Positions 32,477-38,325 of a stretch of 64,000 bases of DNA are shown piece after piece (position 1 is the stretch's first letter; every line of letters starts with the position of its first letter). Source of the DNA: Chloroflexota bacterium (GTDB lineage Bacteria; Chloroflexota; UBA11872); assembly GCA_022826485.1 (NCBI GenBank), contig JAJDUU010000016.1, forward strand, positions 62,001 to 126,000. Reading direction: 5' to 3'. The notes beneath the pieces were generated by a model. That model did not search any database. It saw only the letters and a program-made list of their open reading frames with translations, and had not been told where the DNA came from. The translations under genes and the position numbers were made by a program.

Positions 32477-33586
32477 CTACGCGACGGACGCAAGGCGCGC
32501 GGCGTTGCGCCCGGATTCGGTCAGATACAGGCGATCCGCATCGTGCGTGACCAGCCCGCGCTCCGCGGCCGACTGCACCACGCGTTGGGCGAATTCGGGC
32601 TGCCAGCGCATGTGCCGCTGCATGTGGTCGATGCGGCTCTCGGCGGCGGCTGCCGGCGTGCCCTCATGGGTCGCCAGGTGAATCAACAGCATCTGCCGGG
32701 CAAACGCCCAGCGCTGGCGTCGACGGCGACGACCCGTCACCAGCAGGCCGCGCTCGGGCGCCAGCAGCAACGCGGCCGCGAACGCCACGCCGACGACGGT
32801 GGCCATGGCGCCGGCGATGTTGGCGTCGAGCGCACGCGCGAGCCAGTAGCCGCCGATGGCGCAGGCGGCCCCAATGACCACGCTGAGCCCCAGCATGCGC
32901 GGCAGTCGATCGGTCAGCAGGTGCGCGGCCGCGGGTGGTCCGATCATCAGCGCCACCACCAGGATGCTGCCCACCGCGTCGAACGCGCCCACCGCGGTCA
33001 CCGACACCATGCCCATCAATCCGTAGTGGATCAACGCCGGCGAGAATCCGAGGGCCGTCGCCAGCCCGGCGTCGAAAGTGGCGAGCTTGAGCTCCTTGTA
33101 GAACACGCCGCCGACGATCACGTTGATGAGCAGGATGCCGCCCATGACCCAGAGCGCCACGGGTCCGAGATCGACGCCAAACGGGGCGAAGCGGTTGAAC
33201 GGGGCAAACGCAAGCTCTCCCAGCAGCACGGCGTCGCTGTCCAGATGGACGTCACCCGCGGCAGCCGAGATCAGAATCACCGCAATGGAAAAGAGGGCCG
33301 GAAACACCAGCCCAATCGCCGTGTCCTCGCGAACCAGCCCCGTCCGGTTGACCATCTCCACCAGGACGACCGTCGCCAACCCGACAACGGCGGCGCCGCC
33401 GATCAGCAGCGGCGACCGCAGATCCGCGACGACGAAGAACGCCAGCACGATGCCCAGCAGGACCGGGTGGCTGATGGCGTCGCTCATCATGGACATGCGC
33501 CGCAGCATCAGGAAGGCGCCGGGAATCGCGCACGCCGCGGCCACGACGACGGCGACGATCTGGACCTCGAGCTGCGCGGGAGTCAC
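32477..33586 (-). CDS. Metal ABC transporter permease 2 with C-terminal winged-helix-like tail
   Basis: A 369-residue ABC-3-family permease from a GTG that overlaps the upstream permease stop (GTGA). Eight or nine hydrophobic segments occupy residues 5-280, with the family's MMSDAISHPVLLGIVLAF and FGPPA/IGPPAAAHLL stretches. After an Arg-rich linker (RRRRR) the last about 75 residues form a soluble domain (WAFARQMLLIHLATHEGTPA, RVVQSAAERGLVTHD, LYLTESGRNAARL) that matches a winged-helix/DtxR-like DNA-binding pattern (helix-turn-helix then LTESG wing). The first permease has a similar tail. Together they import a transition metal, likely Zn2+ or Mn2+. The tail could regulate the operon. Confidence 0.87.
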   Translation of the reverse strand: MTPAQLEVQIVAVVVAAACAIPGAFLMLRRMSMMSDAISHPVLLGIVLAFFVVADLRSPLLIGGAAVVGLATVVLVEMVNRTGLVREDTAIGLVFPALFSIAVILISAAAGDVHLDSDAVLLGELAFAPFNRFAPFGVDLGPVALWVMGGILLINVIVGGVFYKELKLATFDAGLATALGFSPALIHYGLMGMVSVTAVGAFDAVGSILVVALMIGPPAAAHLLTDRLPRMLGLSVVIGAACAIGGYWLARALDANIAGAMATVVGVAFAAALLLAPERGLLVTGRRRRRQRWAFARQMLLIHLATHEGTPAAAAESRIDHMQRHMRWQPEFAQRVVQSAAERGLVTHDADRLYLTESGRNAARLASVA

Positions 33587-34716
33587 GGCGCGCCTTCGTC
33601 GGCTTCGCGCAGGCGCGCCGCTCGGGAGGCCCGGTCGTGGCCGCGCTCGGTCAGCGTCCAGGTGTCGCCCGCCCCGCGGCGCGCGAGGCCCTGCGCGGCA
33701 AGCGCCGCCAGGGCGCGGTCGACGATCGATCGGCCTCGCACCGCGTAGAGCGCGGCCACGTGGTGCGCACGGTCGGGCTCGCGCGCGTGCTGCGCCGAGA
33801 GCGCCGCCAGATCCGCCAACACGGTCTCCAGGGCCAGCAGGCGTCGGCGGCGCCAGGCGCGAAGGCGCGCCCACGCGAGTCCGCGACGCGGGGCGAACAG
33901 CAGCGAAACCGCGACGATGCCGGTCGCGACCAGCACGATCGTCGGCCCGGTGGCGGTATGCGCGGTGGTGCTGATGACCGACCCGGCCACACCGGCGAAC
34001 GCGCCAAGCGCGGCCGAGAGAATCACCATGACGCCGAGCCGGTCGGTCCACTGGCGCGCGGCGGCGCCGGGGGCCACCACCATGGCGCTCATCAGCACCA
34101 CGCCGACGGTCTTGAGCCCCACCACGATGGCGATGACCAGCAGACTCGTCAGCAGCACGTCCAACCGTCGCACGGGGAATCCGAGCGAGGCGGCGAAGTC
34201 GGGGTTGAAGCTCAACAGCTTGAACTCCTTCCACAGCACCAGCAGGGCCAGCACCGCAATGGCGCCGACGGCGGCCATGGTGATCACGTCGACTTCGAGC
34301 AGGGCCGCCGCCTGGCCGAAGAGGTATCGATCCAGCCCGGCTTTGCCGGCCGCCGGCTGACGTTGAATGAAGGTGAGGACCACGAGTCCGGCACCGAAGA
34401 ACACGCTGAGAATCAGCGCCATGGCGGCGTCGGCCTTTACCCGCGATGCGCGAATGATGCCGAGAATGGCCAGCGCGGCCACCCATCCGGCCAACGCCGC
34501 GCCGATCATGAGCACCAGCGGCGTGCGGCTGCCGGTGATCAGAAAGGCGAGCGCAACGCCCGGCAGCGCAGCGTGCGACATGGCGTCACCCAGCAGCGCC
34601 TGCCGCCGCAGCACGGCGAAGGCGCCCACCGCGCCGCTGACGATGCCGAGCACCGCCGAGCCGAGCGCCACGGTGCGCAGCGTGTAATCGAAGAGCAGGT
34701 CGCCGAGAACGTCCAC
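33583..34716 (-). CDS. Metal ABC transporter permease 1 with C-terminal winged-helix-like tail
   Basis: A 377-residue ABC-3 permease. Signature features: AVLRRQALLGDAMSHAALPG (about 35-54; the ABC-3 MSHA(A/S)LPG) and LLSFNPDFAASLGFPVRRL (about 165). Hydrophobic helices end near residue 290 and are followed by an Arg-rich linker and about 80 soluble residues: LALETVLADLAALSAQHARE, SIVDRALAALAAQGLARRG, WTLTERGHDRASRAA. This fits a winged-helix (LTERG wing) like the tail of permease 2 and like the permease-repressor fusion YtgCR known in Chlamydia. No catalytic cleavage site can be called. It is 34 bases downstream of the ATPase gene. Confidence 0.87.
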   Translation of the reverse strand: MDVLGDLLFDYTLRTVALGSAVLGIVSGAVGAFAVLRRQALLGDAMSHAALPGVALAFLITGSRTPLVLMIGAALAGWVAALAILGIIRASRVKADAAMALILSVFFGAGLVVLTFIQRQPAAGKAGLDRYLFGQAAALLEVDVITMAAVGAIAVLALLVLWKEFKLLSFNPDFAASLGFPVRRLDVLLTSLLVIAIVVGLKTVGVVLMSAMVVAPGAAARQWTDRLGVMVILSAALGAFAGVAGSVISTTAHTATGPTIVLVATGIVAVSLLFAPRRGLAWARLRAWRRRRLLALETVLADLAALSAQHAREPDRAHHVAALYAVRGRSIVDRALAALAAQGLARRGAGDTWTLTERGHDRASRAARLREADEGAP

Positions 34717-34750: not shown

Positions 34751-35566
34751 TCACGAGGCCGATCCCGCGCTCACGCCGTTGGCGTGGCCTCCGGCGATGC
34801 CGGAGATTCGCCCGCCGTAGGTCTGCCGCAGGTTCTCCTCGGTGAACACGTCCGCGACGGGCCCGGCCGCTATGCGGCGGACGTTGAGCAGCGTCACCCA
34901 GTCGAAGTACTCCGTTACGGTTTGCAGGTCGTGATGCACTGCCACCACCGTCTTGCCCTCGGCCCGCAGGGTTCGCAGCAGGCTCACGATCGCCCGCTCG
35001 GTGGTGGCGTCCACGCCCTGGAAGGGCTCGTCCATCAGGTACACCTCGGCGTCCTGCACCAGCGCGCGCGCCAGGAAGACGCGCTGCTGCTGACCGCCGG
35101 AGAGCTGGCTGATCTGCCGGTCGGCGTAGGCCTCCATGCCCACCTGCCGCAGGGCGGCCTGCGATCGTTCGCGCTGGGCGGCGCCCGGGCGGCGGACCCA
35201 GCCCAGGCGCCCGTAGGTGCCCATGGTGACGATGTCGAGCGCCGTGGTGGGGAAGTCCCAGTCCACGCTGCTGCGCTGCGGCACATAGGCCACCAACCGG
35301 CGTTGCTCGCGATAGGGGCGTCCCAGGATGCGCACGCGCCCGGCGGCCGGCCGGAGCAGCCCGAGGATGGTTCGCAACAGGGTGGTCTTGCCGGCGCCGT
35401 TGGGTCCCACGATGGCCATCAGCACGCCGCGCGGCACCTCGAGATCCACGTCCCAGAGGGCGGGGCGTTGCTGATAGGCCAGCGTGACGTCGGTGGCCTC
35501 GACGGCGAGCGGCGCCTCGGCCTCGCGGTGACCGGTGACGGGCGTGTCCGCCGCGGCGAGCGTCAT
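34751..35566 (-). CDS. Metal ABC transporter ATP-binding protein
   Basis: A 271-residue ATPase. Walker A GPNGAGKT is at about 54-61, the ABC signature LSGGQQQR at about 155-162, Walker B VYLMDEP at about 175-181, and the H-loop His in VAVHHDL (about 210). It starts with an ATG that overlaps the stop of the substrate-binding protein by 4 bases. Sequence matches the SitB/MntB/ZnuC group. It powers the import of a transition metal together with the two permeases. Confidence 0.93.
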
Positions 35567-36561
35567 TCGCCGGTCAGCCCGCTGACGATGGTGTCGATGT
35601 TGTGGCGAATCATGCCCAGGTAGGCGCCTTCCGGCGTGCCCTCCGCGCCCATGGCGTCGGAGTAGATTTCGCCGCCGACGACCACGGTGTGTCCGCGCGC
35701 GCCCGCGGCCTCGATGACCGCTTGGACGCCCTGGTCGGGCACCGAGGACTCGATGAAGACGGCGCGAATGCCACGGTCGCTGATGAAACGCGCCAGGTCT
35801 TGCACGTCGGCGGTGCTTGCTTCGCTCTCGGTGCTGATGCCCTGCAAGCCCCGCACCTCGAACCCATATCGCTGGGCGAAGTAGTTGAACGCGTCGTGGG
35901 CGGTGACCAGGGCGCGAATGCCCGCATCCAACGTGTCGGCCTGCGTCTTGACATAAACGTCAAGCGCTTCGATTTCCGCGATGTACGCCTCGGCGTTGGC
36001 GCGGTAGGTCGCCGCTCGATCGGGGTCCATCTCGACCAACGCGTCGCGGATGCTTGCGACCACGACGGTCCAGAGGTCGAGATCGAACCACACGTGCGGG
36101 TCGTAGGCGCCCTCGAACTCGGGCGGCGCGAGCAGCTGGGCACGGTCGATGCCGTCGGTCACGCGCAAGGAGCGCACCCCGAGGTCCTGCATGCGCTCCA
36201 GGACGCCGGTCATGCCCGCCTCGAGGTGCAGGCCGTTCCAGAACACGACGTCGGCCGATTCGAGCCGCGTGATGTCGCTCTCGCTGGCCCGGTAGAGATG
36301 GGGATCGACGCCCGGCCCCATGAGGGCGTGCACCTGCACGCCATCGCCGCCGACCCGGCGCACGGCGTCGGCGATCTGCCCGATCGTGGCCACGATGTGG
36401 AGAGGACGCTCTTCAGCATCATGCGACACGGCGGCGCCGCCGTTGCAGGCGGCCAGCAGCAGGACGGCTGCCGTGAGGCCGGCCAACCGGGCACGGGCCG
36501 TCAATGCGTGAACAGCTCTGGACAGCAGGGGCGATATCCCCGCGGGTGGCGGCGCGGCCAA
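35563..36561 (-). CDS. Metal-binding lipoprotein (cluster A-I substrate-binding protein, TroA/ZnuA type)
   Basis: A 332-residue lipoprotein with a lipobox LLAAC (Cys39) after a hydrophobic signal ([14 protein letters not shown]). Metal ligands expected from the TroA fold are visible: His88 (GVDPHLY), His156 (DPHVWFD), His222 (TAHDAFNYF) and Asp302 (IYSDAMG). The third position is His, not the Glu of PsaA/MntC-type manganese proteins, so the set H-H-H-D is TroA/ZnuA-like, suggesting zinc or Zn/Mn. The His-rich loop of ZnuA is absent. The start is TTG 36561 (no ATG is available; a TTG nearer the signal peptide is possible). The operon order SBP-ATPase-permease-permease is usual. Confidence 0.9.
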
Positions 36562-36591
36562 TGATTACATGGGCTAAGTCAGTGAATCAAC

Positions 36592-36607
36592 CTTCGCAAT
36601 AGCAAAG
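36592..36607 (-). promoter_or_regulatory. Candidate metalloregulator operator upstream of the metal ABC operon
   Basis: CTTCGCAATAGCAAAG is a near-palindrome (arms CTTCGC/GCAAAG, one mismatch) with an AT-rich centre. Flanking bases extend it (AACTTTGC-TATT-GCGAAGGT on the other strand, 6 of 8 arm bases). It sits 30-46 bases before the lipoprotein start, where an operator would act, and resembles MntR/DtxR-type TTTGC...GCAAA sites. Evidence is by eye only. Confidence 0.4.
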
Positions 36608-36669
36608 TTGTGTTAATCAACAATTGTGGGCTTGGCGCGCCCCACGGAGGTTGCCGGCAGGCGCCGCTC

Positions 36670-38211
36670 CTACACCCCGCACGGGGGGTAGTCCGCCTTT
36701 TCCGGAGTGTTGCTGGGAGAGTGCGGCGAGCCGATGGAAATACGTGCGAAGAAGGCCGCGTCCGCCGCCGTGACGTTGCACCAATAGAAGCCCAATGCCT
36801 GGAGGGTGGCGACGTCCGGCACGTGGCGCCACTGTCCAAGTCCCGCGTCGAAGCTGAAGATGCGGTCGTCGCCGCCGTCGAAGCGGCGCACGAGCTGGCT
36901 GTGGACGGCCCATTGGTCATCCAGCGGAATGGAACCCACCACCTCCACCGGCACGTTGAACCAGGCAAGGACGAGCGTCCAATCAATCTGGGAGACGAAC
37001 GGGCTGTCGGGAGCCACCCAGCGGCGCACGATGTGGCCGTCCGTCCGCCGCACGACCAGATAGGTCTGCCCCAGGGTTTGGTCGCGGATGACGCCGCGGC
37101 GAATGACCCCATCGGGACCGGCGATGTCCAGTCCGCCGTAGGCGCCGACGCGGCCAATGCCCATCACGAAGGAGGTCTCCGGCTGGTCGAGGCGTTGAAT
37201 CAGCACCCGGTCGCCGGCCAGCGCGATGGCCTGGGCCACCGCCGTGCTGCCGATGGCTTGCCCTTCGGCCGGAATCGGGAGCGGATCGGGCGCCGGCGGC
37301 TGTGATGGTTGCGGGGCGGGTTCGGGTGTCGACGTGGGAGTTGAAGACCCACTTGGACCAGCAGGACCCGGCGGCCCCGGCGGCCCCGGCGGACCGGGCG
37401 GCCCCGGCGGACCGGGCGGGCCGGGAGGAGGAGTCGGAGGAGGCGGAGGAGGCGGCGGCGGAGGAGGTGGTGGCGCGGGACGCACCGTGACCGAAACCTC
37501 CCTGGTGCCACGGACTTCGGACCCGCGCTTTAGCGTAAACGTGAAGGTCGTCGATTCCGAGGGGGTTACCACAGCACGTCCGAACCTGTTGAGACCCGAA
37601 TCGACGGTGATCACGGTGCCGTCGCCCCACTTGATCTCGAGTGTGAGATCGGCGCAGGGTTCGCCGCCACAGCTGGCGCTCCAGAACAGCTTGACCGATT
37701 CACCGCTATCGATGGTGAGGGACGGGGAAATGGATGGGGCATTGGCGGTCGCCGGCTGGATGGAGAAACGGTGGATCTTGGCCCGGCTCAGGACGGTGAT
37801 CGAGACGTAGGCGTAGATGTGGATCCCAGTCCGCTTCCGCAGGGCAAGCCTGTAGCGAAATTGGCCCCAATTCGGTGGTGTGGTGGTGACGACGCTGCCG
37901 ATGAGGTGGTCGTCCTCTTCGGTGCTGGACACCGAAACGCTCGGATCGTCGATCAACACCGTGATACCGGTGCAGTCGTCGTCGCAGTCAATGTCCCAGT
38001 GCAGCTTGAGCGACTCGCCGCGCCAGATGGTGATCGAAGTGGCTGAGCCTGGGTCGCTGGCATCCGGCGCAGTGACGGTAAAGTACTTGACAAAGGGGTT
38101 AACGTTCGGGGGGTCGCCGCTCTGGGCCGCAGCCGGCTGTGGCGTGGCCGGAATCCACAAGACGGCGACGAGGACCGCGAGCGCCGCCAGCACCCTCGAG
38201 CTGCTGACCAT
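36670..38211 (-). CDS. Secreted protein with two Ig-like domains, Pro-rich stalk and collagen-like GPP repeats
   Basis: A 513-residue exported protein. I start it at ATG 38211 (MVSSSRVLAALAVLVAVLWI, then AAAQ), a typical signal peptide; GGGGA lies just before. Two similar beta domains follow (about 35-135 and about 140-235), each with a Cys pair (DCDDDC; SCGGEPC) and the block ESxKLxW. Then a run of 14 prolines and a collagen-like stalk of eight G-P-P/G-P-A/G-P-S triplets (about 255-290), a TSTPEPAPQP linker, and a C-terminal domain of about 185 residues ending in a YWCNVTAAD segment and a terminal Cys pair. A trimeric surface stalk is the simplest reading. The C-terminal family is not recognised. 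Confidence 0.82.
   Translation of the reverse strand: MVSSSRVLAALAVLVAVLWIPATPQPAAAQSGDPPNVNPFVKYFTVTAPDASDPGSATSITIWRGESLKLHWDIDCDDDCTGITVLIDDPSVSVSSTEEDDHLIGSVVTTTPPNWGQFRYRLALRKRTGIHIYAYVSITVLSRAKIHRFSIQPATANAPSISPSLTIDSGESVKLFWSASCGGEPCADLTLEIKWGDGTVITVDSGLNRFGRAVVTPSESTTFTFTLKRGSEVRGTREVSVTVRPAPPPPPPPPPPPPPTPPPGPPGPPGPPGPPGPPGPPGPAGPSGSSTPTSTPEPAPQPSQPPAPDPLPIPAEGQAIGSTAVAQAIALAGDRVLIQRLDQPETSFVMGIGRVGAYGGLDIAGPDGVIRRGVIRDQTLGQTYLVVRRTDGHIVRRWVAPDSPFVSQIDWTLVLAWFNVPVEVVGSIPLDDQWAVHSQLVRRFDGGDDRIFSFDAGLGQWRHVPDVATLQALGFYWCNVTAADAAFFARISIGSPHSPSNTPEKADYPPCGV
37357..37475. repeat. Tandem GGC-CCC-rich repeat coding for the GPP stalk and poly-Pro
   Basis: Short repeats of the type GGCGGCCCCGGCGGACCGGG (37366-37430) encode the collagen-like triplets on the minus strand. 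They are followed by GGAGGCGGA-like units (37431-37475) that encode a proline run. Both tracts lie in frame and could vary in length. Confidence 0.85.
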
Positions 38212-38325
38212 CACGTCCCCATGGTCCTCTTCCACGCGTAACGAGGGCTGATTATGCCGCGTCAAACAAGGCGCCCACGCTCGATGGCGTTCGCACGACA
38301 GGCTAGCGCAGGAATTCTCGACATC

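Follow-up and report, generated by a model that had tools for sequence, protein, structure and literature searches.

Predicted winged-helix tails related to DtxR regulators on both permeases of a Chloroflexota metal importer, and a possible role in transport feedback

Why should both permeases of a bacterial metal importer end in a domain that resembles a DNA-binding regulator? The 64-kb stretch of Chloroflexota DNA analysed here (the window) encodes a four-gene divalent-metal importer on its minus strand. A sequence-only reading of the window had noted winged-helix-like tails on its two adjacent permeases and, by likeness to chlamydial YtgCR, had proposed that they form a self-contained metal sensor acting on the operon's own promoter. 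YtgCR is cleaved to yield an iron-dependent repressor, and permease-repressor fusions have been reported in 11 phyla (PMC5599777, PMC7755916). Because of YtgCR, such fusions are discussed as gene switches. We asked whether the tails in the window fit that role, and the features on which the answer rests are collected in Table 1.

Table 1. Features of the importer operon and its promoter region, in window coordinates
Feature	Position	Strand	Remarks
Metal-binding (solute-binding) lipoprotein, first gene of the operon	35563..36561	-	TTG start uncertain; orthologs head the operons of relatives
Importer ATPase	34751..35566	-	Orthologs in relatives
Permease 1 (P0001), 377 aa, ABC-3 family	33583..34716	-	PF00950, E 1.7e-67; PsaC-like (7kyo/7kyp)
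Permease 2 (P0002), 369 aa, ABC-3 family	32477..33586	-	PF00950, E 1.7e-40
Permease 1 tail, residues 279-377	33586..33882	-	Predicted winged helix-turn-helix domain, its first helix continuous with the membrane part; AlphaFold2 pLDDT 89.4; alignment A1
Permease 2 tail, residues 278-369	32480..32755	-	Predicted winged helix-turn-helix domain; AlphaFold2 pLDDT 92.4; alignment A2
23-bp operator-like dyad CAACCTTCGCAATAGCAAAGTTG	36588..36610	.	7-bp arms with one mismatch; 0.01 expected by chance; contains the palindrome 36592-36607
Overlapping dyad GTTGATTAACACAACTT (GTTG-N7-CAAC)	36605..36621	-	At the operon promoter in 6/6 genomes of the genus

Both permeases belong to the ABC-3 family (TroCD/MntCD/ZnuB type), as judged from PF00950 and from an operon that also encodes a solute-binding protein and an ATPase. 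The operon is an ABC-3 importer for divalent metal, similar to TroABCD and MntABCD, and we infer that the imported metal is probably manganese. The presumed start of the solute-binding protein reads ATG AAA in most congeners, whereas the window has ATG TAA TCA TTG there (36561-36570), which leaves the TTG (36561) or a later codon as the start. A single congener, L109, likewise has a stop at this place, with ATG CAA TCA TAG. The gene upstream of the operon (36670-38265, minus strand) encodes a product with poly-Pro and collagen-like GPP repeat stretches. A further ABC-3 permease in this genome (G000:C29:50677-51471) matches permease 1 within residues 6-288 and not beyond.

In a Pfam search the ABC-3 match extends to about residue 274 of both permeases, and the solved relatives PsaC and ZnuB align with them only to about residue 280, that is, up to the tail. 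The membrane domain ends near residue 278 in both proteins alike, and the soluble stretches that follow, 99 residues in permease 1 and 92 in permease 2, contain the wing motifs LTERG and LTESG, in agreement with the two tails and the LT(E)xG wing first noticed. Relatives' tails were gathered from 48 public loci and from genome searches, and AlphaFold2 was run on the isolated tails with alignments of 32 (permease 1) and 39 (permease 2) relatives. The models confidently predict a winged helix-turn-helix in each tail, so the claim of a winged-helix-like domain withstood a structure prediction on which it could have failed. In Foldseek searches of the PDB, the top match of tail 2 was MntR (4hv6) and the top matches of tail 1 were MarR-type regulators. 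Neither tail reached an E value below 0.001 in these searches, which is not surprising for a winged helix of 90 residues, and we base the fold assignment on pLDDT together with the many winged helix-turn-helix matches. Searches of the isolated tails against Pfam and NCBIfam gave either no meaningful result or weak, sub-threshold matches to winged helices (HemN_C, E 3.5e-4). Since no model of either collection scores above cut-off over the tail domain, annotation pipelines may overlook it. The tails are kept across phyla and are therefore not a product of chance.

The models also bear on how the domain is attached. The tails do open with Arg-rich stretches (RLRAWRRRR and GRRRRRQR), but these had been taken for a linker, whereas in the predictions a single unbroken helix (tail residues 2-30) runs from the end of the last membrane segment into helix 1 of the domain. 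In the models the Arg-rich segment thus has the appearance of a stiff stalk at the surface of the membrane and not of a loose link, and this predicted continuity does not favour release of a repressor by cleavage.

Profile comparisons indicate that both tails are domains related to DtxR/MntR-type regulators, with DtxR as the best family match. Comparison of their profiles shows that the tails are also homologous to one another (hhalign 96%, E 4e-9). Against PDB sequences the tail 2 profile ranked MntR first (E 0.01), while that of tail 1 placed ScaR high (E 0.002), below several eS10 ribosomal winged helices; the comparison with DtxR and MntR that had been suggested for the tails thus came out in favour of kinship. 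Among regulator families, hhalign gave 91% and 94% (tails 1 and 2) for DtxR, 83% and 93% for MarR, and 17% and 29% for ArsR. For tail 2 DtxR is only narrowly ahead of MarR, and the stronger argument for DtxR as the parent comes from context. At the same place in relatives from Balneolia and Planctomycetota, long tails run on into the Fe_dep_repr_C domain (PF02742, E 1e-25 to 3e-16). We therefore rejected MarR as the parent, which is nearly equal for tail 2 but poorer for tail 1. A local resemblance of a tail 2 motif to the EHHLSW ligand motif of MntR was judged to be chance, since the motif lies in helix 2 of the model. PF01325, the other domain of the family, was not found above its curated cut-off in either permease.

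The tails differ from DtxR repressors most clearly in what follows the winged helix. In DtxR and MntR, PF02742 holds most of the metal ligands and the dimer interface, and the MntR ligands H77, E99, E102 and H103 lie within it. PF02742 was not found in either permease, and the tails in the window end before it; they therefore have no counterpart of these four ligands. Within this genome PF02742 occurs only in two stand-alone DtxR proteins. The likeness to YtgCR holds for the DtxR-type winged-helix fold and for kinship with permease-repressor fusions, but it does not extend to this domain.

The short tails, which consist of the winged helix only, instead conserve polar residues of their own. 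In the non-redundant set of permease 2 short tails, H303 (95%), H307 (89%), E316 (91%) and W328 (98%) are conserved, the position of E308 is acidic in 82% of sequences where aligned, and H325 is present in 70% and otherwise mostly replaced by Glu. In the corresponding set for permease 1, H310 (94%), H318 (85%) and W353 (97%) stand out. The polar residues of this set (H303, H307 and E316; H310 and H318) are absent from the conserved positions of full tails. The top polar residues are typical metal ligands, forming HxxxHE, E and H in permease 2 and H and H/HxH in permease 1, and this conservation suggests a candidate metal site in the short tails. Where helix 3 would face DNA, the short tails vary in sequence and carry residues of mixed charge, and the median charge of the domain is -2 in permease 2 and 0 in permease 1, compared with +2 in DtxR winged helices. 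The variability of helix 3 could also reflect DNA binding at different operators.

From this well-supported anatomy we infer, tentatively, that the tails are a DtxR-derived domain repurposed as a membrane-tethered module for cytosolic metal feedback. The domain would stay on the transporter, joined to the last membrane segment by the predicted continuous helix. When cytosolic metal is high, the tail would bind it through the conserved His and Glu residues, and the metal-bound tail would then restrain the permease/ATPase cycle, a form of trans-inhibition. Control of operon transcription would fall to a separate protein, a stand-alone repressor of the DtxR family working through the operator at 36588-36621, and the candidate for it is the DtxR protein encoded on contig C2 (L001). 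We place the action on the transporter because the fold is kept, the metal and dimer domain is absent, His and Glu residues are conserved, the attachment is predicted to be rigid and a separate repressor exists. Fused regulatory domains and trans-inhibition are known from the ABC importers MetNI and ModABC (PMC10710835). In these importers, however, the regulatory domain is carried by the ATPase and not by the permease, and the analogy in this respect argues against feedback. The conserved His and Glu residues of the tails could instead serve contacts with the ATPase.

Alternatively, the tails may have a purely structural role, stabilising the permease dimer or docking the ATPase, with the His, Glu and Trp residues acting in an interface or core and not in metal sensing. 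Core and polar residues are highly conserved from phylum to phylum, and in the models the membrane segment extends directly as a helix into the tail; both observations are consistent with such a role, as is the distribution of the tails. The permease 2 tail is almost always retained, being present in 100 of 107 sampled permeases and missing in 7, a sign of a kept function that speaks for the feedback module as well. The permease 1 tail is often lost: in the tree of this permease the state without a tail changes about 10 times, and these tails are dispensable in many lineages, which counts against the feedback module. Nevertheless, the polar residues conserved best are of the kinds that usually bind metal, and solved relatives that match only up to the tail indicate that related importers work without one. 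We regard a structural role as rather unlikely.

Across bacteria, operons fall into six tail classes, given here for permease 1/permease 2: full/full, full/short, short/short, none/short, short/none and full/none. The full/full class comprises about 21 operons of Planctomycetota. The short/short class includes the window, Chloroflexota, Tissierella and others, and the none/short class many Chloroflexota and Clostridium. Such tails also occur in the cultured relatives Tissierella praeacuta DSM 18095 and Clostridium algidicarnis DSM 15099. Among 301 Chloroflexota genomes, about 50 have the tailed permease 2 clade, and nearly all of its high-scoring members cover the tail. In trees built from the membrane domain alone, one change suffices in each permease tree for the label full; these are quick trees with several long branches, and their change counts carry no direction. 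The direction that we suppose for the series, from full to short, would make the Planctomycetota proteins the older form. In this phylum (L082, L084, L217-L239 and L247-L264) both adjacent metal permeases have complete DtxR-like tails, with winged helix and PF02742, and it is conceivable that such a double fusion forms a membrane-held heterodimer of two repressor domains. At some loci of the Planctomycetota set (L235-L238 and L261-L264) the tails are weakly DtxR-like and a stand-alone DtxR gene lies right after permease 2, in convergent orientation.

The promoter region shows which part of the regulatory proposal stands. The palindrome that had been marked just upstream of the operon (36592-36607) is real and makes up the inner portion of the dyad at 36588-36610; this dyad is conserved in part within the genus, and the palindrome forms the core of a larger element, 36588-36621. 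We take this element, predicted from sequence, to be a real and conserved operator. The GTTG-N7-CAAC dyad is the sole such site in four of the six genomes of the genus, the other two (G001 and G005) having one extra site elsewhere. At the same promoter the sister genus has a conserved dyad, CTAAAAACATTNNTTTAG, which is unrelated to that of the window, and there a stand-alone DtxR gene adjoins permease 2 convergently. The ortholog of this gene in the present genome is L001 (61-64% identity). Between the two genera the operator appears to co-vary with the recognition helix of DtxR, but since the tail helices have changed as well, this is no more than suggestive.

It had also been supposed that no separate regulator gene exists. 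This is true of the operon itself; the genome, however, has two stand-alone DtxR genes, on contigs C2 and C39, the only places where PF01325 scores above cut-off. The second of these (L002, G000:C39:39300-39470) lies directly downstream of the ABC ATPase gene of another importer (L002 238-1347). Many other loci likewise have a stand-alone DtxR gene beside the tailed operon (for example L041, L050, L053, L062 and L078), and the canonical operator TTAGG-N3..5-CCTAA was found at 9 of 99 tailed-operon promoters, where 0.045 are expected from shuffling. These promoters belong to the short/short, none/short and full/full classes. An ordinary DtxR layer therefore exists whatever the tail. The idea that full fusions replace stand-alone DtxR was rejected, as genomes with double full fusions also have stand-alone DtxR-family genes.

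These data weigh directly on the original proposal, in which the tails would be metal-dependent, DNA-binding repressors of the YtgR kind that act on 36588-36621, either cleaved off or from the membrane, so that the importer senses its own metal. The winged-helix fold with DtxR as best family, an operator that the genus conserves and that is nearly absent away from this promoter, the published fusions and the lack of a DtxR gene in the operon all speak for it. Yet PF02742 is missing from both tails, the models show a continuous helix and no flexible linker, helix 3 is unconserved and the permease 2 domain is slightly acidic on average. Additionally, a DtxR gene with an ortholog in this genome adjoins the sister-genus operon, the permease 1 tail has been lost repeatedly, and canonical DtxR operators occur across several tail classes. 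Together, the results make a self-contained repressor and sensor improbable. More improbable still is that the tails deliver metal, accepting or chaperoning it on the cytosolic side of the permease exit with no feedback: conserved His and Glu residues, held by the tail at the cytosolic end of the permease, would suit this role, but we know of no precedent in the ABC-3 family.

Returning to the feedback module, its history may be extended in a way that we consider somewhat unlikely as a whole. A captured regulator domain would have lost DNA reading and the dimer and metal domain and gained a metal site, thereby becoming an allosteric brake on both permease halves; the Planctomycetota double fusions would be a surviving earlier stage, possibly a membrane-held repressor heterodimer. 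Whatever its history, the short-tailed class is large and spans several phyla, and in it the fused domain has kept its fold, is without the known metal and dimer domain and conserves another polar set. If the tail senses metal, this would provide a route for direct feedback on Mn, Zn and Fe ABC importers, for which no trans-inhibition domain is described in the literature searched. The feedback idea is directly testable using short protein fragments.

Permease-DtxR fusions are already known, and the class with the winged helix only is a new variant. The literature that we searched, which was limited in coverage, contained no description of such tails, whether on one permease or on both, with a conserved residue set of their own; the original fusion survey (PNAS 2012) may include some short-tailed proteins among its members. 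Like the window proteins, YtgCR is an ABC-3 permease for metal that is encoded in an uptake operon and extended at its C terminus by a winged helix of the DtxR type. In the window, by contrast, both permeases are tailed, PF02742 is missing from the tails and a different set of His and Glu residues is conserved, and the genome also encodes stand-alone DtxR proteins. DtxR, MntR and ScaR (PF01325 and PF02742) share the winged-helix fold and the best profile similarity, whereas the tails lack both PF02742 and a PF01325 match above cut-off, are fused to permeases and have an unconserved helix-3 surface. In the Planctomycetota double fusions, likewise, both permeases of the operon are tailed in the same position by DtxR-related domains, but these retain PF02742. 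PsaBC, MntBC and ZnuBC have the homologous permease domain and no C-terminal domain. Finally, MetNI and ModABC (PMC10710835) would share with the window importer the proposed principle, a cytosolic domain that halts the transporter on sensing its imported substrate, although their domain has another fold and sits on the ATPase, and the extra domain of the window importer is on its permeases.
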